This document shows positions 9,677 through 19,840 of a stretch of 35,201 nucleotides of DNA, piece by piece. Each line of letters starts with the position of its first letter. Position 1 is the first letter of the stretch. This DNA is from a virus. Where the stretch lies: positions 1 to 35,201 of the IMG/VR virus record IMGVR_UViG_3300032006_000034; one strand, written 5' to 3'. A model generated the notes under the pieces. That model was not told the origin of the DNA. It ran no database searches and saw only the letters and a list, made by a program, of their open reading frames with translations. The position numbers and the translations under genes were made by a program.

Positions 9677-9833
9677 CTTTCATTTCCTCCATCTTTGTAA
9701 TACACATAACTGAGATCTTTTTGAAGGTTATTTCATCTTGAGTTTTCTGTGATTTAGTTTTAGCAAAAGCTAGTTCAAACCAATTAGTGATACACTTGTA
9801 ATCATCTAGGGTTAATTCAACACTCATACTCAT
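9666..9833 (-). CDS. Small hypothetical protein (55 aa)
   Basis: MSMSVELTLDDYKCITNWFE then a mixed helical sequence ending KMEEMKDEG. Starts in an ATGA overlap with the terminase nuclease gene, which supports coupled translation. Function unknown. Confidence 0.6.
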   Translation of the reverse strand: MSMSVELTLDDYKCITNWFELAFAKTKSQKTQDEITFKKISVMCITKMEEMKDEG

Positions 9834-10498
9834 GGTGTGAAAACCTCTCTATGTAATGATTCTGCATGGGTTGGAACGCCTGAGCCATAAATGTCCTCCT
9901 CATTATTCTCAAATTTTCTTGAAGTAACTTGAAGTTGTTGAAACATTCCCTCATGATTTTTAATAAAATTCCTGCCTATGAAACAAGCTAGCATTAAAGC
10001 CATTACAGTATCATCATGCTCATTTCCTTCTGCCCTATATGATACATTGCCTGATTCAGTAACAATTTCTGAGAAAATTGAAATTTGCCTCTTTAATTCC
10101 TCTATATCCTTATTGCTAGTTTTTGGGAACTTTATTCGATTATTCTGAAACATTCTTGCCAACCATAACACCATTTGGTTCTTAGGCATAACACGACCTG
10201 AATTGATTTTTGATTGGTCCTTAGTCTCTCTAGTAGTAAATGTAGGGATAACATTAGGAATTTTATGACGATATTTCAATTCTTCAAAGACGTGTTCACC
10301 TGTGTTGTTAATCTCTACAACATAATAATTGAATGGTTTTGTATCATGAATATTTGCAATTAAGTTCTCAACATCTAGATAGTTTCTACCAAGCCAAGTC
10401 TTTACACCTGTTACATACACGTTATCATTTCTGATTTCAATACCTACAAAAGCAAAAGAATCTTTGCGTTTGCCACTATCAATTCCTGCTATTCTCAT
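9830..10498 (-). CDS. Terminase large subunit, separate nuclease domain
   Basis: 222 residues with an RNase H-like fold pattern. Strand 1 carries GIDSGK with Asp7, strand 4 carries VVEINNTG with Glu62, and the C-terminal catalytic segment is NEHDDTVMALMLA with Asp162/Asp163. This acidic layout matches the C-terminal nuclease of phage TerL, which cuts concatemeric DNA during packaging. There is no ATPase domain in this gene; the ATPase is encoded about 420 bases upstream in transcription order, with two small genes between. Split TerL proteins are uncommon, so the two halves presumably act together. Overlaps the upstream 84-residue gene by 20 bases. Confidence 0.82.
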   Translation of the reverse strand: MRIAGIDSGKRKDSFAFVGIEIRNDNVYVTGVKTWLGRNYLDVENLIANIHDTKPFNYYVVEINNTGEHVFEELKYRHKIPNVIPTFTTRETKDQSKINSGRVMPKNQMVLWLARMFQNNRIKFPKTSNKDIEELKRQISIFSEIVTESGNVSYRAEGNEHDDTVMALMLACFIGRNFIKNHEGMFQQLQVTSRKFENNEEDIYGSGVPTHAESLHREVFTP

Positions 10499-10737: not shown

Positions 10738-10926
10738 TTATTCTTTATTCTGAATATGTTTTACAATTTCATCTAGTAGAACTTGTTGAGCATTAATTAC
10801 CTGTTTAAGACTATCAATTTCAATCTGTTGCCTTTGAAATAGTTCATGTAATGATTCGCAAGTATCTCTGTTATCCTCACAGGCAATAGCTATCTGAAAC
10901 ATATTTGGTAGATCACTAACTTCCAT
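10738..10926 (-). CDS. Small coiled-coil protein between the terminase halves (62 aa)
   Basis: Starts MEVSDLPNMFQIAIACED; the rest (ESLHELFQRQQIEIDSLKQV...LLDEIVKHIQ) is a clear heptad-like coiled coil. ATG at 10926 has GAGG 9 nt upstream and overlaps the ATPase stop; an in-frame ATG at 10941 would add five residues. It could bridge the two terminase polypeptides, but that is speculation. Confidence 0.6.
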   Translation of the reverse strand: MEVSDLPNMFQIAIACEDNRDTCESLHELFQRQQIEIDSLKQVINAQQVLLDEIVKHIQNKE

Positions 10927-11818
10927 ATTCTTCTGCCTCATAATCTTCTAGAGCATCGTCTTTTATAACACCAAATATTGAGGAACGTGAAGAAGTAAAT
11001 TGGCATCTGTATTCCTGATCTACATCTATGTCTATTCGTTTTAATTCCTCAGCCATCTCTTTTTCTGAATAAATCCAACCTATTGCATTAGTGTAATCAT
11101 ATTGCAATTTCTTATAGTCATTTTCCTTAATTGCTAAATCATAAAAAAATCCTCTTTGACCTCTAGGTGTTGAAACTAGGAATATGTCAGACTTGTTTGT
11201 ATGCAGGATAGGTTCAATCGCATCTAATACAACACTATCATTTACTAGGGCAAAGTGTGCAGCCTCATCTACAACTACGGCTTTGATTTTAGTTTCACCA
11301 CGAATAGCCTCACTATTTGATGGTTTGCCTTCAATCTCAGTTCCGTTTTTTAGGACCAATCTCAAATCATTTCTATCCTCTTTTAATGTAGAATGAATAT
11401 TGTTGAATAACATCTTAAGCCTGTTAATTACTGTCTTAGTAGTTTTTTCCCTAGTTCCTGCAATAATTAAGATCTTACCACCTTTGTATTTATGAAAGGC
11501 ATGGTATTGAACAATCCTTAGAACAATTTCTGTAAGTCCTATCTGTCTTGATTTGTTAATATGAAACTTAACTTGATGTGGTGATAATGCTTGTTGAATA
11601 AGGTCAGATTGGTGAGGCATAAACTTCATAGGTTGAAGGGTTGCTGGGTGTTCAGGCAGACCAACTTTATGTGAAAAACAACAGTTCTCACTAGGGTTAA
11701 TATTTCCACAGAAGAACTTTAGTTGTGATATTTCTTCTGATATATCCTGTTCAACTGAATCGTGATCAGTTTGGAATGTTGGATAAATGTCCTGTATCTT
11801 GAACGACTTTGGTCGCAT
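10916..11818 (-). CDS. Terminase large subunit, separate ATPase domain
   Basis: About 300 residues from the ATG at 11818 (GGAGGT 11 nt upstream; an in-frame TTG at 11827 is less likely). It shows the TerL ATPase motifs: the Walker A-like KSRQIGLTE near residue 90, Walker B VVVDEAAH near 182-189, and motif III FLVSTPRG near 214-221. The N-terminus holds a Cys/His-rich patch (FFCG...ENCC...H). The protein ends just after the ATPase domain (SSIFGVIKDDALEDYEAEEY), where a nuclease domain would normally follow. It powers DNA translocation into the head with the small subunit encoded just upstream. Confidence 0.85.
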   Translation of the reverse strand: MRPKSFKIQDIYPTFQTDHDSVEQDISEEISQLKFFCGNINPSENCCFSHKVGLPEHPATLQPMKFMPHQSDLIQQALSPHQVKFHINKSRQIGLTEIVLRIVQYHAFHKYKGGKILIIAGTREKTTKTVINRLKMLFNNIHSTLKEDRNDLRLVLKNGTEIEGKPSNSEAIRGETKIKAVVVDEAAHFALVNDSVVLDAIEPILHTNKSDIFLVSTPRGQRGFFYDLAIKENDYKKLQYDYTNAIGWIYSEKEMAEELKRIDIDVDQEYRCQFTSSRSSIFGVIKDDALEDYEAEEYGS

Positions 11819-12197
11819 CTCTTTCAATTACCTCCTGTGATGCTGAATAATATGCTGATAATAATGGCTGTATGCTAGATATTGAATCAAGGATTCTTTG
11901 CTTTTCAGAAGCACCTTTTGCCCTATGAAAGTTTTGCCATGAAAATTTTAGTATGGTTTCTAGTTGGTCAATCCTCTCAAGATGTTGCTCCCATAGACCT
12001 TTCTGTTGTAGTTCAAATTTACGCTTATCTGTAATACTTTTCAGCCTGCCTTTAATCCTGTAAAATGTTGCTACAGACATTGGTTTCTTCTTTTTGTCCT
12101 TAGGTTGATGAGCTCTAATCCAAGCTAGTGATTCTGCCTCACTAAGCTTCATAATCATAGTCTGCATAACTAGGACTTCACTATCATTTAGAGCCAT
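11766..12197 (-). CDS. Terminase small subunit (HTH) candidate
   Basis: 143 residues, all-helical. The N-terminal ~50 residues look like a helix-turn-helix: LSEAESLAWIRAH, a lysine-rich loop, then MSVATFYRIKGRLKS as the recognition region. The remainder is long helices (LEQHLERIDQ-like, EKQRILDSISSIQPLLSAYY) suited to ring oligomerisation. It overlaps the ATPase gene by about 50 bases and lies directly upstream of it, the standard TerS-TerL arrangement. TerS recognises viral DNA for packaging. Assigned by architecture and position. Confidence 0.72.
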   Translation of the reverse strand: MALNDSEVLVMQTMIMKLSEAESLAWIRAHQPKDKKKKPMSVATFYRIKGRLKSITDKRKFELQQKGLWEQHLERIDQLETILKFSWQNFHRAKGASEKQRILDSISSIQPLLSAYYSASQEVIERDATKVVQDTGHLSNIPN

Positions 12198-12226: not shown

Positions 12227-13216
12227 TCATTTAAGGATAGATATAATGTGTAATGCTATGTGTTTCATTAGGTTAGGTGGCACAGCCCTGCCTACTCTTT
12301 CAAACTGTTGCATATAATTTCCTACAATCTTAAAGTCCTCAGGAAAACTTGAACAGGCTTTTAATTCCTCTATAGTTAACCCTCGAACTTCTTTAGGGTG
12401 TAAGATACATAGTGGAAATGTAGTGATAGTTGGTAATGGTTCGTGCATAGATGCTCTAGTAGTATTGAACCAATTCCCTTTAGGGTGTAACTCAGCAGGA
12501 CTATGACCTTGTTTTGTTTGCTCAAATAAGTGATAACTTGACCAAGATTTTGCCTGTTCTGTTAATTTTTGCCTTTGGTCCTCATTGTTTTTTATTCCTA
12601 ATACAGCCTCACTAAATGTGATTGGTTTTCTGAATGGCTTAGGGTGTGAGGCTTTTTTGTTAAGATCCTTTCTAATTCCTATACAGAACATTCTTTCTCT
12701 TGCTGTAGCAGTTTCAAAGTATTTGGCATTTAGTATCTCAGCATTAATATCATAACCAATTTTTGATAACTTCACTAGGTAGTTAGATAACAAGGATTTT
12801 GCAATACCCATAGTCATTCCTTTAACATTCTCTATGACAAATGCTTTTGGTCTTATCTCGTCAATTAACCTAATTTGCTCATCAAACAAATCATCAACCC
12901 TTTGAACTGTGTCGCTATACTTCTTTTCTTTTCCCCACATTTTCTCTCTTTTACCAGCCACAGAGAAACTAGCACAAGGTGGTGAGCCATCAAGAATATC
13001 TAATTCACCTTTTTTTAATCCTATTAGGTCCAAAATATCCTGCCCTTTAACCTCACGAATGTCTTTTTCTATGATAGGTGTGTTAGGAAAATTAAGTCTG
13101 TAACATTCCCTTGCAGCCTCGATAAACTCTAAGCTTGCTAATACTTTGCAGCCTGCTAATTTGTAGCCCATACTAGAACCACCTACGCCTGAAAATGTCG
13201 ATACAACTGTTGTCAT
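12227..13216 (-). CDS. DNA (cytosine-5) methyltransferase with altered cofactor pocket
   Basis: 329 residues with the C5-methyltransferase motifs in order: I FSGVGG (8-13), IV GSPPC with catalytic Cys81, VI ENV (129-131), VIII RER (173-175) followed by MFCIG, and X near 309-314. The target-recognition region (~190-270) is short. Two pocket residues are unusual. The residue after Cys81, normally Gln in PCQ, is Ala82, and motif X reads GRAVPP, with Arg310 where GNxV normally has Asn. These equal Gln82 and Asn304 of M.HhaI, the positions mutated by engineers to admit larger SAM analogues. With a CmoA homolog two genes upstream, I infer it uses carboxy-SAM to make 5-carboxymethylcytosine. Ordinary methylation remains possible. 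Overlaps the ligase gene by ATGA. Confidence 0.9.
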   Translation of the reverse strand: MTTVVSTFSGVGGSSMGYKLAGCKVLASLEFIEAARECYRLNFPNTPIIEKDIREVKGQDILDLIGLKKGELDILDGSPPCASFSVAGKREKMWGKEKKYSDTVQRVDDLFDEQIRLIDEIRPKAFVIENVKGMTMGIAKSLLSNYLVKLSKIGYDINAEILNAKYFETATARERMFCIGIRKDLNKKASHPKPFRKPITFSEAVLGIKNNEDQRQKLTEQAKSWSSYHLFEQTKQGHSPAELHPKGNWFNTTRASMHEPLPTITTFPLCILHPKEVRGLTIEELKACSSFPEDFKIVGNYMQQFERVGRAVPPNLMKHIALHIISILK

Positions 13217-14004
13217 TTATTCCAATCTCTGCAAATATCCATTACTCTTTTCCTGTTATTAATATTAATCTGTTTGTTTGTTAAAAGATGTTCAAATAAT
13301 TTATCAATTTTAGCCTCTAATTGAAGATTAAGATGTGGTTTAATTTTATCAATTTTTAATAACTCATTAGAAAAAGCATTTCTGACATGACATTTTTGAA
13401 CTTTATGATGTAACTGTTTATGATTGTATTTCATAAAAAAATTTTCTATGGTTTTATGCCATAAGTAAGGGTGAATAAGGGTTTTGTTATAATCATTACA
13501 AAGCATACCTAATTGCATTATCCCTGCTGGGTTTTCTTGAGTAAAATAATCATATCTAAATTGGTCAAACTTTGTTTTTGTTTGACTAAAATGAATCATT
13601 GCCTTTTTACTTAGACCATACCAACCATCAGCACATATTCCTGATAAGATAAATTTTTCATTGATTTTTGGAATAATATACAAAAATGGAAACGTACACT
13701 CAAATTGTGTTTTTTTCTTACAGTTGTATTTTCTTAATAATATGAACCAATCATTTATTAGGTTATTTTTTGGAACTTCAATGACATTAATATCCCAATT
13801 AAATTTCTTTGAAACATTAATAGCTGTCTTTGAATCATAGCTTGGCTCATCTTCTAGATGAAATGTATAAGCATGAACTTTTTTGCCAAGTCTATGAGCT
13901 GAAAAAGCAATGCTTAGGCTATCTATCCCACCTGATAGTAATACAGCAACCTCATTATCTTTAACCTCATTTTGTATTATATCTTGTAATAATTTATCAA
14001 TCAT
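13213..14004 (-). CDS. Stand-alone asparagine-synthetase-like (PP-loop) ligase
   Basis: 263 residues matching only the C-terminal synthetase domain of AsnB-type enzymes. It has the PP-loop SGGIDS at 24-29, a YTFHLEDEPSYD segment, and ILSGICADGWYG at about 119-130, which corresponds to the AsnB SGxGxDExFGG motif. There is no N-terminal glutaminase (no Cys2 nucleophile). Family members adenylate a carboxylate and then form an amide with ammonia or another amine (for example beta-lactam synthetase). Here it sits, in ATGA overlaps, between the CmoA-like and C5-methyltransferase genes. A reasonable substrate is the carboxyl group of carboxymethylated DNA, giving an amide. This is inference. Confidence 0.8.
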   Translation of the reverse strand: MIDKLLQDIIQNEVKDNEVAVLLSGGIDSLSIAFSAHRLGKKVHAYTFHLEDEPSYDSKTAINVSKKFNWDINVIEVPKNNLINDWFILLRKYNCKKKTQFECTFPFLYIIPKINEKFILSGICADGWYGLSKKAMIHFSQTKTKFDQFRYDYFTQENPAGIMQLGMLCNDYNKTLIHPYLWHKTIENFFMKYNHKQLHHKVQKCHVRNAFSNELLKIDKIKPHLNLQLEAKIDKLFEHLLTNKQININNRKRVMDICRDWNK

Positions 14005-14732
14005 TTTGTTGCTATGAATCCAGCAAAATTATACCACTTAAAGAATAGGTCCACCCTGTTAAATCCTGCACTTACTAACAGTCGTCTATTTTCCTCTAGT
14101 GCTATTGGTGTCATAACACCTCTCAGGCTTTTGCTTTTCTTTTGATTATTCTCTGCTGTCAAACCATTCCTTAGTTTCATATCATGGTAAAGATCTATCA
14201 TCATTTCGTTAAAGTGAGCATCATTAGCTAGGACTTTCTCAACAAATACTATTGCCCCACCATCTCTTATATTCCTGCAAATATCTCGTAATACATTCAG
14301 GCGTTTTTCCTTCTTTAGAAACTGTAAGGTGAATAGGGAAATAACAAAGCTATACTCACCACTTGTCTTAATACTAGGCATACCTTGATTTAGGTCTGCA
14401 CATATTACTTCTGTATTATTAAATTTAGAAATAAACTCATTTAGGTTTCTATTACAAACATCAACCATTTCCTGTGATTCATCAATAGCAATATACTGAA
14501 TATGTTTTCTGTCATTATTAATGTCAATACTTCTAATTGTAGTTCCTGTTGAAGCTCCTATATCTAGGACAACATCACCATCTCTAATGAAATAGGTTGA
14601 CATTTCTGTAACCATTCTTTGTATCTCATTATAGAGAGGCACAGACTGAGTAACGTGTTGATCGAAGTTTTCTGCTACATTCTTTGACTTAAAGGACCAG
14701 CTTTCTGCATACTCTATAGGATCATTGACCAT
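14001..14732 (-). CDS. cmoA-like: CmoA-like carboxy-SAM synthase
   Basis: 243 residues, close in size to E. coli CmoA (247) and alignable by eye along its length. Matches include FDQHVTQSVPLY with CmoA FDERV...RSVPGY, SAM loop DIGASTGTT (57-65), IAIDESQEMV, SLFTLQFL (132-139; CmoA NFTLQFL), GGAIVFVEK, LYHDMKLRNG (181-190; CmoA MHHDFKRANG), QKKS (197-200; CmoA QKRS) and the ending YNFAGFIATK. The CmoA arginine that holds the extra carboxylate (Arg199) is Lys199 here, a conservative change. CmoA makes carboxy-SAM from SAM and prephenate for tRNA wobble modification. No CmoB partner is present; a C5-methyltransferase lies two genes on, so I infer a role in DNA modification. Confidence 0.88.
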   Translation of the reverse strand: MVNDPIEYAESWSFKSKNVAENFDQHVTQSVPLYNEIQRMVTEMSTYFIRDGDVVLDIGASTGTTIRSIDINNDRKHIQYIAIDESQEMVDVCNRNLNEFISKFNNTEVICADLNQGMPSIKTSGEYSFVISLFTLQFLKKEKRLNVLRDICRNIRDGGAIVFVEKVLANDAHFNEMMIDLYHDMKLRNGLTAENNQKKSKSLRGVMTPIALEENRRLLVSAGFNRVDLFFKWYNFAGFIATK

Positions 14733-15225
14733 GACTACAATCTTTGACTATACACCTATGCTCTATACTATTTGAAAAATCAATCTTAGTATTTTCTGTA
14801 GGTATCTCAGTATTTTTAGTTAAAGCATCAAGGAATGATTGTTCTGGCTTTGCTATTAGTTCAGAAAATTCCTCTAGCTTACCAGCATTTTTTAGTATTT
14901 GAAACTCTAGTGAATCTTTCTTTGCATCATGCTCACCCCTGAGTTTGTTTAGGATTTGCCTTAACATTTTTCCGTCCATCTTGTTAGCAGGAATTACATA
15001 AGCAGGAATATTTTTTTCACCTAGCTTTTCATAGGCTTTTACCCTATGCTCACCATCTAATACTTGCATTTTTTCATTAAGTATGATAGGTGCAAGAAAT
15101 CCAAATTTTTCCATACCCTTAGAAAGTGCGTCCATTTGTTTATCAGTTAGATAATTTGGGTTTGTATTATCAAATTTAATTTGATTTATTGGAATTTTTT
15201 TAATAGAAAATTCTTTAACCTTCAC
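14722..15225 (-). CDS. ParB/Srx-fold (ParB-like) protein
   Basis: 167 residues. The N-terminal ~80 residues are a ParB N-terminal-like domain: IPINQIKFDNTNPN, KGMEKFGFLAPIILN, then the box VLDGEHRVKAYEKLGE (55-70) with GEHR in place of the classic GERR nucleotide-binding motif. The C-terminal part is helical and ends with CIVKDCSHG (two Cys, one His). Stand-alone ParB-like proteins often lie beside phage DNA-modification enzymes; whether they bind nucleotide, cut or guide the enzymes is unsettled. GTG start at 15225, first gene of the cassette after a strong terminator, overlapping the CmoA-like gene by 11 bases. Confidence 0.78.
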   Translation of the reverse strand: MKVKEFSIKKIPINQIKFDNTNPNYLTDKQMDALSKGMEKFGFLAPIILNEKMQVLDGEHRVKAYEKLGEKNIPAYVIPANKMDGKMLRQILNKLRGEHDAKKDSLEFQILKNAGKLEEFSELIAKPEQSFLDALTKNTEIPTENTKIDFSNSIEHRCIVKDCSHGQ

Positions 15226-15265: not shown

Positions 15266-15306
15266 AAAAAAAAGAAAAAAGGAGGGAATCCCTCTAAAGA
15301 GGGATT
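15266..15306 (-). terminator. Strong T-rich terminator with perfect hairpin
   Basis: The minus strand has a perfect 8-bp stem (AATCCCTC / GAGGGATT, loop TTTA, plus-strand 15287-15306), followed by CCCTCC and a run of T broken by one C (15266-15281). A second, overlapping GAGGG-ATT-CCCTC stem is mutually exclusive with it. It separates the protease region from the modification cassette. Confidence 0.75.
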
Positions 15307-15635
15307 GATTTTGGCAAACTCATTCTCACTGCATCGTGAAACGCATTCCTAGATATGCGAAAATCCTGTGTAGGATCTTCTGAGTGTGCCATAAATCTAT
15401 TTGTTTGCCAAAGAAACAAGAGTTGATATTTGCCTGCCCTATACATTTTATATGGAAACTCTGATTCAAAATCACTAAACTCAAAATAGATTGCGTTTAG
15501 AATAGATTGACCTCTATCAGATTGTCTAAACAATTCAATTTCATCTTCACTTTTTCTTCGAAATTCCAAGTTGAATGATTCGTATTGCCTTAGAATCTGA
15601 TGTTCCATTTTCTTTACAGCTTCTTCAAGGTTCAT
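15294..15635 (-). CDS. Hypothetical protein (113 aa)
   Basis: From the ATG at 15635, which overlaps the upstream TGA (ATGA); the longer in-frame start at 15668 is less likely. Sequence is a charged N-terminal helix (NLEEAVKKMEHQILRQYES), then EFSDFESEFPYKMYRAGKYQ, LLFLWQTNRFMAH and a C-terminal helix. No family recognised. Its 3' end is built into the terminator hairpin. Confidence 0.6.
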   Translation of the reverse strand: MNLEEAVKKMEHQILRQYESFNLEFRRKSEDEIELFRQSDRGQSILNAIYFEFSDFESEFPYKMYRAGKYQLLFLWQTNRFMAHSEDPTQDFRISRNAFHDAVRMSLPKSIPL

Positions 15636-15823
15636 TGCTGTTTTTCCTTCTCTGTGCAAGTAAAGCACTTAGGGTGTTCTAGCAGTCCGTTTTCTAATGT
15701 GGTCTTGAAAAGTTTATGACAAGATTCACAAATAAACTCAAGTGCTACAGGTTGACCTTGATTATTGAAAATAACCCAATAATGCTTTGGTCCTTTGTAT
15801 TCACTATATTCTGACTGGCTCAA
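15632..15823 (-). CDS. Small zinc-ribbon-like protein (63 aa)
   Basis: C32-x2-C35 (ICESCHK) and C53-x2-C56 (KCFTCTE) 17 residues apart form a zinc-ribbon pattern after a WVIFNNQGQPVALEF beta hairpin. ATGA overlaps at both ends couple it to its neighbours. Function unknown. Confidence 0.65.
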   Translation of the reverse strand: MSQSEYSEYKGPKHYWVIFNNQGQPVALEFICESCHKLFKTTLENGLLEHPKCFTCTEKEKQQ

Positions 15824-16700: not shown

Positions 16701-16955
16701 TTAAGCCTGCCATTTTCTTACTTTAGAAAATATCATCATAGAAATAGAGATCATAGGAATTATCTCAATTAGGTCCACCCCATATAGAAAGAAGTCTAAA
16801 ACAGGGTGATAATTACTAACCAACCCAGCCTGTAAATACAAATCAGCGTTCCATATCATGTGAGGAATTTGAATGTAAATAATTACAGCAGTAATGAATA
16901 ATGACTTTGTAGTGTGTTTTTCATACCATGCCCAAAATCTTTCCCAAGTATTCAT
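16701..16955 (-). CDS. Small two-helix membrane protein
   Basis: 84 residues. N-terminal amphipathic MNTWERFWAWYEKH, a first membrane helix (LFITAVIIYIQIPHMIW), a short loop, and a second membrane segment (FFLYGVDLIEIIPMISISMM) with a basic tail KVRKWQA. It is joined by ATGA to the membrane-anchored protease gene upstream, so it may partner with it at the membrane. No family recognised. Confidence 0.6.
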   Translation of the reverse strand: MNTWERFWAWYEKHTTKSLFITAVIIYIQIPHMIWNADLYLQAGLVSNYHPVLDFFLYGVDLIEIIPMISISMMIFSKVRKWQA

Positions 16956-17737
16956 CTACAATCACTAATTATTCCTTCCATAAAATCACATTGTTTTGGA
17001 ATCCAACTAGGTCTTGGATAACCAAATCCATCTTCACCATAAATTTTAATCAGCATTTGTATATCTTCATGCTGAACTGTTTTAGTTTGGTTTTTCCAAA
17101 TATCTAACGAATGATACATAATTGAACGGTCTTGACATTGACCTACTAAACAAGATGTATCATGTAAATAATAATGCCCTAATCCTAATGCGTGTCCAAA
17201 TTCATGCGATACAATGTTTCTAATATCAATCATATCCAAATCTTTTGGTTTTAATTCTATATTGATATCACTACTTCCACCTATTGATATTGTAATTTTC
17301 TGTGGTGGATATGCCTGTGTGTATGTTGTGATAAAAGCATACTTATGACTACTATGTGAAAAATCATAACCTGTCGTGCCAAGTGCTGATGAACCACTTA
17401 ATTGTTCAAACGTTAAAAAAATATCACATTCAGGAAAATCTCTAGGTGTTTTTTTATCATGTGTATGAAATGGATATTCATAAATTGGAAAATCCCAATC
17501 ACCATTCGTTGCTTGATTAAGTCTTAATTCCCATTCCCAAATTGCTGATCTTGTTATGTCATACATATACGGATAAAATAATGGTTCAAGTTCAGGATCT
17601 GGTGACATGATACAGGACACAGGATTATTAGTTTGATATAATCCCATAGTGTCCATATAATCACCAAAGGCAATTCCTAGTATTCCAAAAATTAACAATG
17701 AGCATACTACTGCATAAAGTGCTGCATAGATATACAA
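16952..17737 (-). CDS. Membrane-anchored or secreted matrixin-like zinc protease
   Basis: 261 residues. An N-terminal hydrophobic segment at about residues 3-25 is a signal peptide or anchor, putting the catalytic domain outside the cell. The metzincin site HEFGHALGLGH is at 178-188, followed by the Met-turn SIMY at 205-208, the M10 (matrixin) signature. TRSAIWEWELRLNQATNG at ~62-79 is the usual helix after strand 1. Cys196 and Cys201 flank the active-site loop and may pair. The start is TTG at 17737, the only one that keeps the hydrophobic segment. It could degrade host S-layer or pseudo-envelope proteins during entry or exit (inference). Confidence 0.82.
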   Translation of the reverse strand: MYIYAALYAVVCSLLIFGILGIAFGDYMDTMGLYQTNNPVSCIMSPDPELEPLFYPYMYDITRSAIWEWELRLNQATNGDWDFPIYEYPFHTHDKKTPRDFPECDIFLTFEQLSGSSALGTTGYDFSHSSHKYAFITTYTQAYPPQKITISIGGSSDINIELKPKDLDMIDIRNIVSHEFGHALGLGHYYLHDTSCLVGQCQDRSIMYHSLDIWKNQTKTVQHEDIQMLIKIYGEDGFGYPRPSWIPKQCDFMEGIISDCR

Positions 17738-17738
17738 T

Positions 17739-17825
17739 TTAATCTGCCTGTTTGTTAATATGCTCTAATAGACAACTTCTGCACATTTCATCGCCATGTT
17801 CATGACAAGAACAACTACAAGCCAT
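17739..17825 (-). CDS. Cys-rich microprotein (28 aa)
   Basis: MACSCSCHEHGDEMCRSCLL then EHINKQAD. Six Cys in 28 residues (C3, C5, C7, C15, C18 plus His8, His10, His22) suggest metal binding, although exact pairing is unknown. It overlaps the second protease gene's 3' end by 11 bases and ends one base before the TTG of the first, so it links the two proteases. Confidence 0.5.
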   Translation of the reverse strand: MACSCSCHEHGDEMCRSCLLEHINKQAD

Positions 17826-18477
17826 TTTTACGTCTCAATAACCATCTTTTTACTGCCTTGTATATTCTAGGATTCCAACGCCTTTTACCATACTTGTCTG
17901 TTATTCGTTTAATATCAAAATCATTTAGATGCAACTGACCATTATACTGCCACCACATTACTGATTTGTTATTATTAGCATCATGGGTTAATCCTAGACT
18001 GTGACCAATCTCATGTATTAGAACGTGAAGCATATTCCAAGTCTTAATTGTTGTTCTAGTTCCAAAAGGATATTGTAATGGATAAGCTTCGTGAGCATTA
18101 ACAGGGTTTCCATCTAAGGACCAAAGATAATCCTCATTAAACACAATTTTTCCTGCATGACTTGTTTTAGGATAGTAAGCATACGCCAAAGTTCCTTTCT
18201 TTAGCCACTTATCATTTTCACTTTTTACAAAGTTAATGTAAATGTCAGGGGTTTGATTGCCCCTGACAGATTTTAACTTGATTGGTATTTCGAAATTCCA
18301 AGTTGAAAAAGCTAGATTAACTGCTTTCATTTCTTTTGCTCTGCCTTCAATGTCCACACTATCTCTTTGCAGGGCATAATAGACGGTTTGCTTATCCCAC
18401 TTATGATCCCAATGTGTCTGATTTTCCTCTGAAAACTCTAGTTCACCATTATTATCACGAACTAAACAAACTGCCAT
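17815..18477 (-). CDS. Matrixin-like zinc metalloprotease without signal peptide
   Basis: 220 residues. N-terminal domain has the matrixin opening (KQTVYYALQRD, then AFSTWNFEIPIKLKSV), a strand pair PDIYINFVKS, and AGKIVFNED. The zinc site HEIGHSLGLTH is at 155-165 and the Met-turn SVMWW at 172-176, all ligands present. The C-terminal helix ends in a very basic tail (RRWNPRIYKAVKRWLLRR). No signal peptide is visible, unlike its neighbour, so it may work in the cytoplasm, be packaged in the virion or be released on lysis. It lies directly after the terminator of the DUF932 gene. Confidence 0.82.
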   Translation of the reverse strand: MAVCLVRDNNGELEFSEENQTHWDHKWDKQTVYYALQRDSVDIEGRAKEMKAVNLAFSTWNFEIPIKLKSVRGNQTPDIYINFVKSENDKWLKKGTLAYAYYPKTSHAGKIVFNEDYLWSLDGNPVNAHEAYPLQYPFGTRTTIKTWNMLHVLIHEIGHSLGLTHDANNNKSVMWWQYNGQLHLNDFDIKRITDKYGKRRWNPRIYKAVKRWLLRRKNGL

Positions 18478-18499: not shown

Positions 18500-18530
18500 A
18501 AAAAAAAGAAAGGAGGGGTTGAAATAACCT
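18500..18530 (-). terminator. T-rich terminator after the DUF932 gene
   Basis: Just past the DUF932 stop the minus strand has a weak GGTT-ATTTC-AACC stem, then CCCCTCCTTTC and eight T. The CCTCC plus T-run resembles the terminator at 15266-15306. Confidence 0.6.
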
Positions 18531-19774
18531 TAAGCGTTTCTGCCTATGGTTAATTCTGGGTTCATACGGTTTTTCTCACTAAAGAATAGTGAATTGACCT
18601 TACCGTATTTCTTGAAGTGTGATCTCCAAGTTCCTGATACATCTTCGCTAGTTAGAATTCTAGTCAAATCATTTGCTCCCATATACCAAGTCTTGTTACG
18701 GTCTAGTAACTTGACATCAGTTTCTTTATGGTCGCCAACTTTAGTGACTGTGACTTCTAACCATTGTTTGAGTAGAGGGTGGTTGTAAAGATTAGCAGGC
18801 AATGATTCGACTACCATTTGAGCCATTGCTTGATTAATCTTGTATTCACCTAGTTCTTTCCAGACACTTAGATATTCATTTCCAAGTTCTAATGCTACAA
18901 ACATTGATTGTCTCATCTCGATTGGATCAATATCTCGTCTGTGAACGAATCTGCCTAAGGTTGCTGGTCCAGTTAAGTCCTTAACATCTTCCAACTTTTT
19001 GGCTGTGGTGAGTTCCTTCCACTTTTTCTGTATCTTTGTGTCAATCTCTAGAAATGCCTCTTTAGCACGTTTCAATATTTCCTCTAACACTTGTCCAGAG
19101 AAAACTCTGTTAGTGCCGTACAAGGACTTTGAAGAATGTACCATTGTGTTTGAGCAGACACCTCTGAATGTTACAGGTTCTATGATGAGTGCAGAACTGC
19201 CATCTAGGGAATTCCTGATGCTGAATCCTGCTCTGATAGAATCTTTTACACCTGTGGTTGCTTGACCAAGATCTATGTTGTATTTTTCCTTAAACTCATC
19301 TTTGATGAGAAAGGTTGCATTCATAAATCTTCCATCTGGTGAAATGATAGCATCTGGTGAACCACCAGCAAATCTACCATCTCTTGCAGATGAAATAAAT
19401 GGTCTTCGCCATCTGCCTGTTCCAAAGCATCTAGATAGCTGGATTGGCATACCTAGAGTTTCTGAAACTCTTTGTGCATTTTCTAAAGGAATTTGGTGTG
19501 GGCAAGCATGGTATTGAGTTGAAACGTCCCAAGCGTGATTTAGGAACGTAACTTGTCTTGAACCAGTTCCTGTGCCTCTATACAAAGTGTTGTAAGTTAC
19601 AACACCGTATTCAGCCCAAGTTTGATCTGAGACTAACTGATGAGAAAATTCCTCACCTGTGAGTTGTTCTTCCTCAAGACCTTTAGCAAGAAACTCGTCT
19701 TTAGATTTTTGACTGAGTTCATACTCTGCCTGCGTAGCCCCTCTATTGAGGGGATTTCTGTTATTTGCGTTGTT
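18530..19774 (-). CDS. DUF932 phage/plasmid-like protein
   Basis: 414 residues from the ATG at 19774; the long upstream extension would begin with TTG and run through a promoter. The centre has the DUF932 hallmark: an AGFSIRNSLDGSSALIIEP segment followed by FRGVCSNTMV, i.e. N-S-x-D-G-S and R-x-x-C-x-N. N-terminal SPDAIISPDGRFMN and C-terminal helical (FVHRRDIDPIEMRQ) parts surround it. DUF932 proteins are common in large phages and plasmids; their role is unproven but linked to DNA metabolism by context. A TATA-like box and a palindrome precede it and a terminator follows, so it is its own transcription unit. Confidence 0.78.
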   Translation of the reverse strand, partial: NNANNRNPLNRGATQAEYELSQKSKDEFLAKGLEEEQLTGEEFSHQLVSDQTWAEYGVVTYNTLYRGTGTGSRQVTFLNHAWDVSTQYHACPHQIPLENAQRVSETLGMPIQLSRCFGTGRWRRPFISSARDGRFAGGSPDAIISPDGRFMNATFLIKDEFKEKYNIDLGQATTGVKDSIRAGFSIRNSLDGSSALIIEPVTFRGVCSNTMVHSSKSLYGTNRVFSGQVLEEILKRAKEAFLEIDTKIQKKWKELTTAKKLEDVKDLTGPATLGRFVHRRDIDPIEMRQSMFVALELGNEYLSVWKELGEYKINQAMAQMVVESLPANLYNHPLLKQWLEVTVTKVGDHKETDVKLLDRNKTWYMGANDLTRILTSEDVSGTWRSHFKKYGKVNSLFFSEKNRMNPELTIGRNA

Positions 19775-19800
19775 CATGTTCTTAGAGAGACTTAGAAAAA

Positions 19801-19818
19801 ATACTATATTTAGTTTAG
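19801..19818 (-). promoter_or_regulatory. TATA-box promoter of the DUF932 gene
   Basis: Minus strand CTAAACTAAATATAGTAT, with the TAAATATAG core centred about 33 nt upstream of the ATG at 19774, fits an archaeal promoter with a very short leader. A perfect palindrome sits directly upstream. Confidence 0.52.
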
Positions 19819-19840
19819 AGGTTTTTAGGTCCAAAAACCT
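19819..19840. repeat. Perfect 8-bp inverted repeat next to the promoter
   Basis: AGGTTTTT and AAAAACCT flank a 6-base loop AGGTCC. It adjoins the DUF932 TATA element on its upstream side, where an archaeal repressor or TFB could be affected, and could be an operator. It is too far past the upstream gene (stop at 19909) to be its obvious terminator. Confidence 0.5.

Follow-up and report, generated by a model that had tools for sequence, protein, structure and literature searches.

A natural pathway for the hypermodification of cytosine in phage DNA has recently been described for Synechococcus phage S-B43 (Yang et al., Nat Commun, 7 Dec 2025; PMC12783734). In this system, CmoA produces carboxy-SAM (Cx-SAM), CmoX carboxymethylates C5 of cytosine within GC motifs, and CmoY adds glycine by ATP-dependent ligation, such that the phage DNA holds 5-glycylcarboxymethyl-dC. 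The methyltransferase SpCmoX carries Arg350 where HhaI methylase has Asn304 (motif X), and this residue is in contact with the cofactor's carboxymethyl group; the wild-type enzyme with this Arg uses Cx-SAM only (PMC12783734). The same study gathered 5,615 candidates with SPPC and R350, in part from IMG/VR, and noted ParBc neighbours near many CmoX genes, to which its authors assigned no function. Its ligases were clustered with a limit of about 30% identity and E 1e-56, and further clusters have other pocket residues, including one glutaminase-bearing cluster for ammonia (PMC12783734).

The window examined here is the complete IMG/VR record IMGVR_UViG_3300032006_000034, a linear phage contig of 35,201 bases that may be a fragment. 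Four of its genes form a cassette that, judging from homology, very probably encodes a CmoA-CmoX-CmoY DNA hypermodification system. The first-pass annotation was aware of no described natural DNA pathway with these parts, a view overtaken by the December 2025 publication (PMC12783734), and the cassette is a clear new example of that published pathway and not a new invention. The logic originally proposed, wherein carboxy-SAM leads to 5-carboxymethylcytosine and then to an amide, was right, and its biochemistry is available in close homologues (PMC12783734). Given that the window methyltransferase carries both SPPC and the counterpart of R350, the window is probably one of the 5,615 candidates already gathered (PMC12783734).

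Organization of the cassette

The cassette lies on the minus strand and begins with a ParB-like gene (14722-15225; GTG start, 167 aa; PF02195 ParB_N, E=8e-7; GEHR motif). This is followed by a CmoA-like carboxy-SAM synthase gene (14001-14732; 243 aa; TIGR00740, E=1e-45), a stand-alone AsnB-like ligase gene that resembles CmoY (13213-14004; 263 aa; PF00733 Asn_synthase, E=1e-12) and a DNA C5-methyltransferase gene that resembles CmoX (12227-13216; 329 aa; PF00145 DNA_methylase, E=1e-54). Successive genes overlap by 11, 4 and 4 bases. The gene order, the single strand and the 4-11-base overlaps were all as first reported when the ORF coordinates were rechecked, and the four names agree with the family searches. 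The terminator that had been placed before the cassette fared less well. A terminator-like hairpin on the minus strand (15287-15306; an 8-bp stem, then CCCTCCTTTT) is indeed present just upstream of the ParB-like gene, where it separates the cassette from the upstream gene at 15294-15668, but such matches are no more frequent in the window than in shuffled sequence, and therefore the hairpin is weak evidence.

A block of the same four genes in the same order is present in a second phage contig, IMGVR_UViG_3300022933_000013 (G009; locus L020). The four cassette proteins are 54-69% identical between the two contigs, versus about 23-41% for the other genes they share. Recurrence of the block with this degree of conservation excludes chance, and the cassette thus appears to be conserved as a unit or to move as one.

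Phage packaging genes, comprising a terminase and a weak portal match, are located downstream of the cassette. The large terminase occupies two ORFs, one for the ATPase (9830-10498) and one for the RNaseH-like nuclease (10916-11827), with two small ORFs between them; in G009, the ATPase part is matched inside one longer ORF of 477 codons. Identity of the terminase to its best isolated-phage matches is low (about 23-28%) and the portal has no match, and we therefore propose no host. A gene for a DUF932-like protein (18530-19834) is found upstream of the cassette. The window also carries two adjacent metzincin-type (Peptidase_M10) metalloprotease genes (16952-17737 and 17815-18477), one of which has a 41% identical relative adjoining the G009 cassette, and a second DNA-modifying enzyme, a Dam-type N6-adenine methyltransferase (PF05869; 23655-24197).

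Carboxy-SAM synthase and C5-methyltransferase

In the first step of the proposed pathway, the CmoA homologue would turn SAM and host prephenate into carboxy-SAM. The window protein matches PDB entries 1im8 and 4gek (E=1e-30) and is about 30% identical to SpCmoA. Its TIGR00740 score of 155.9 bits falls below the curated cut-off of 193.3, but SpCmoA, which is proven to be active, scores only 115.6 bits, and thus this cut-off does not decide whether a protein synthesizes Cx-SAM. In E. coli CmoA, the carboxylate of Cx-SAM is bound by Arg199 (PMC3663124). The equivalent position is Ser200 in the window and Glu in active SpCmoA; among 104 aligned CmoA sequences it is mostly Glu, and Arg is kept in only eight, a count that includes the E. 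coli and Haemophilus reference sequences. An Arg four residues past this position is found in the window (Arg204), in SpCmoA and in 67 of the 104 sequences overall, and our guess is that this later Arg takes over carboxylate binding. We found neither the loss of Arg199 in most phage CmoAs nor the later Arg described in the PMC12783734 main text. A scan of IMG/VR with CmoA sequence alone gave no matches, probably because exact peptide patterns are too strict.

Bacterial CmoA is an enzyme of the tRNA pathway, and PHROG 4752 is labelled as a tRNA methyltransferase, as would be expected if the phage carried genes for tRNA wobble modification (the cmo5U pathway). However, no CmoB (PF08003) was detected in the 35,201-base contig by a search that was positive in an E. 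coli control, which bears out the absence of this enzyme recorded on first reading. Moreover, cmoA overlaps the adjacent genes and shares an operon with those for a DNA C5-methyltransferase and a ligase, and the equivalent gene set modifies DNA in S-B43. We regard a role in tRNA modification as extremely improbable.

In the second step, the CmoX homologue is predicted to follow a C5-methyltransferase mechanism, wherein Cys81 would attack C6 of cytosine to yield 5-carboxymethylcytosine at a short motif, and binding of the cofactor carboxylate by Arg310 would allow carboxy-SAM to be accepted. Among PDB entries, SpCmoX (8yf3, E=1e-70) is the best match of the window protein, with C81 (of SPPC) and R310 aligned to C98 and R350 of that enzyme. 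Across a family alignment of 127 sequences, C81 is present in every one and R310 in 126, the remaining sequence having a gap. The GC target motif is that of S-B43, and the corresponding motif of the window enzyme, whose specificity region differs, may not be GC. The dinucleotide GC shows no depletion in the window (O/E 1.09), and base composition is thus uninformative on the target motif.

Membership in PF00145 and the generic Pfam annotation carried by both methyltransferases would also fit an ordinary 5-methylcytosine methyltransferase that happens to adjoin an unrelated methyltransferase and ligase. Against this reading, which we judge to be very unlikely, Arg310 replaces the motif-X Asn, wild-type SpCmoX, which has the same Arg, uses Cx-SAM only (PMC12783734), and Arg at this position predicts a CmoA neighbour. 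Among 79 loci fetched by CmoX alone, a set that like those below includes related contigs and hence does not count independent events, CmoA lies within the fetched stretch in 75. The fetched stretch reaches 2.5 kb or more in each direction for 31 of these loci, and 29 of the 31 have CmoA. Of the 79 loci, 36 include CmoY and 37 a ParB-like gene. A second set comprised loci retrieved only by a nucleotide pattern that represents the ParB partner's C-terminal tail, and here CmoA accompanies 64 of 66 methyltransferases with motif-X Arg versus none of five with Asn or Asp (Fisher p=2e-6). For methyltransferase relatives in bacterial genomes, the locus includes CmoA in 13 of 16 cases with the Arg versus 0 of 59 others (p=4e-12), where many of the non-Arg rows show Met at the motif-X column, possibly through a slight misalignment, and none has CmoA in the fetched stretch. 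A trio unique to this one genome would have counted against the pathway in the view of the first-pass annotation; the combination is instead widespread, which speaks in favour of the pathway. Arg versus Asn in motif X offers a simple genomic marker for carboxymethyltransferases, with CmoA co-occurrence evident in two separately gathered sets.

Several other loci deserve mention. In Staphylococcus phages vB-SscS-F1 and PhiSepi-HH3 (L005:4786-5793 and L009:4672-5679), a C5-methyltransferase adjoining CmoA has the motif X sequence VVGGVIN, without the diagnostic Arg, and GSPC instead of SPPC. These proteins are possibly a second type of carboxymethyltransferase that is missed by a search for SPPC and Arg. 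Tandem CmoX pairs are present at six loci (L077, L079, L082, L085, L128 and L130), most of them beside CmoA and several with CmoY. Moraxella phage Mcat8 was considered as an example of CmoX without CmoA and rejected, since the next gene encodes a divergent CmoA-like protein (TIGR00740, E=2e-17).

The sequence GGCC is absent from the window (35 expected) and occurs twice in G009 (35 expected), and GTAC is also strongly depleted in the window (9 versus 68). These depletions suggest strong HaeIII-type restriction pressure.

The ligase and its amine

An AF2 model of the window ligase (mean pLDDT 93.6, pTM 0.91) has beta-lactam synthetase (1mc1, E=5e-10) and AsnB (1ct9, E=3e-8) as its top Foldseek matches, and carbapenam synthetase was also matched. 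All three of these enzymes adenylate a carboxylate in the course of amide formation. By the same chemistry, the CmoY homologue would adenylate the new carboxyl group with ATP and couple it with an amine, glycine being the likeliest, in the third step of the pathway.

We consider glycine the probable amine, and 5-glycylcarboxymethylcytosine the probable product, on the basis of sequence relationships. The window ligase and S-B43 CmoY share 52.5% identity (E=1e-102), and the two proteins fall in one branch of the CmoY tree (29 rows, support 100/98). Family and profile searches found no N-terminal glutaminase domain in the 263-aa protein, as matches cover the synthetase domain only, which makes free ammonia an unlikely substrate. 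Because of the 52% identity to a glycine ligase and the lack of this domain, 5-glycylcarboxymethyl-dC is likelier than 5-carbamoylmethyl-dC, and thus the 5-carbamoylmethylcytosine end product originally suggested is not favoured.

Alternatively, the pathway could be unchanged while the ligase uses a different amine, be it another amino acid, a polyamine, or free ammonia to give 5-carbamoylmethyl-dC. The loop before invariant Lys204 reads LHHKVQK in the window and LNKPxQK in the family, which means that the amine could differ; near relatives vary in this loop too. Ligase clusters with other pocket residues, and the glutaminase-bearing ammonia cluster, offer precedents (PMC12783734). However, the identity and E value shared with the proven glycine ligase are far above the published clustering limit (PMC12783734), the window retains every position that does not vary across 95 family members, and the ammonia variant in particular is at odds with the missing glutaminase domain. 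We therefore hold a different amine to be a minority prospect, perhaps one chance in a few, and retain glycine as the preferred assignment.

We claim no new role for the ligase from the 35 of 97 ligase loci that have no CmoA or CmoX nearby. The sole long record searched among those 35 (L030, 80 kb) has CmoA and CmoX elsewhere in the contig, and the other searched records are short (10.8-30.8 kb).

Taken together, the proposal that carboxy-SAM would be made, cytosine carboxymethylated and the carboxyl amidated is well supported, where these three steps have been shown for the S-B43 enzymes (PMC12783734) and are assigned to the window proteins by homology. The likely benefit is protection of the phage DNA from host restriction.

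The ParB-like partner and comparison with known systems

The ParB-like protein of the window has a Cys-containing C-terminal tail (HRCIVKDCSHGQ) and its G009 counterpart has another (HRCIVGDCEHGQ), both of which are variants of a CPxCGYEW-type tail that ends 38 of 43 ParB-like partners. We found no description of this tail in the PMC12783734 main text. A blind scan for it returned 75 tail-bearing ORFs, and a C5-methyltransferase is next in nearly all of those for which downstream DNA is covered. Some tail-bearing partners are beside Asn or Asp methyltransferases, and thus the ParB-like partner is not confined to carboxymethyltransferases. The AF2 model (mean pLDDT 73.5) has the CTP-binding fold of ParB/Noc proteins, whose structures it matches at E=2e-8, with the tail unresolved in the model; a zinc site in the tail is a guess. 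In a fourth step, the ParB-like protein would probably work together with CmoX on the DNA, perhaps in a loading or recruiting role gated by CTP. More speculatively, and with an appropriately low expectation, it may be dedicated to C5 base-modifying enzymes as a factor that loads them onto DNA in a CTP-dependent manner; its tail would dock on CmoX or on ordinary C5-methyltransferases, and the carboxymethyltransferase could thereby become processive on phage DNA.

The cassette adds another phage lineage to a natural base-modification pathway that was published only recently, and it indicates that such a pathway is recoverable by sequence reading alone. Two of its details are testable, namely how phage CmoA acts without Arg199 and how the Cys-tailed ParB partner serves CmoX.

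Among known systems, the ParB-DNA methyltransferase fusions of haloarchaeal viruses HRTV-28, HSTV-1 and phiCh1 likewise link a homologous ParB domain to a DNA methyltransferase, but their matched features are annotated as adenine or generic DNA methyltransferases, whereas the window ParB is a separate protein with a Cys-containing tail. The bacterial cmo5U tRNA pathway (CmoA/CmoB) has the carboxy-SAM synthase in common with the window, which differs in lacking CmoB, in having a DNA C5-methyltransferase as the presumed consumer of carboxy-SAM and in the replacement of E. coli Arg199. In the engineered DNA carboxymethyltransferase M.MpeI N374K (cited in PMC12783734), a basic residue gives a C5-methyltransferase the use of Cx-SAM, as is predicted in the window, although that enzyme is engineered, acts on a CG motif and has no ligase. 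The phage S-B43 system is unrelated at the level of the phages, its CmoA and CmoX are only about 30% and 40% identical to those of the window, with a different CmoX specificity region, and no ParB-like gene is annotated in the fetched 10.8-kb S-B43 stretch, whereas one is directly upstream in the window. Nevertheless, both systems have the same three enzymes in the order CmoA-CmoY-CmoX (with 4-base overlaps in S-B43), the SPPC motif and motif-X Arg in their methyltransferases, and stand-alone ligases that belong to one family.
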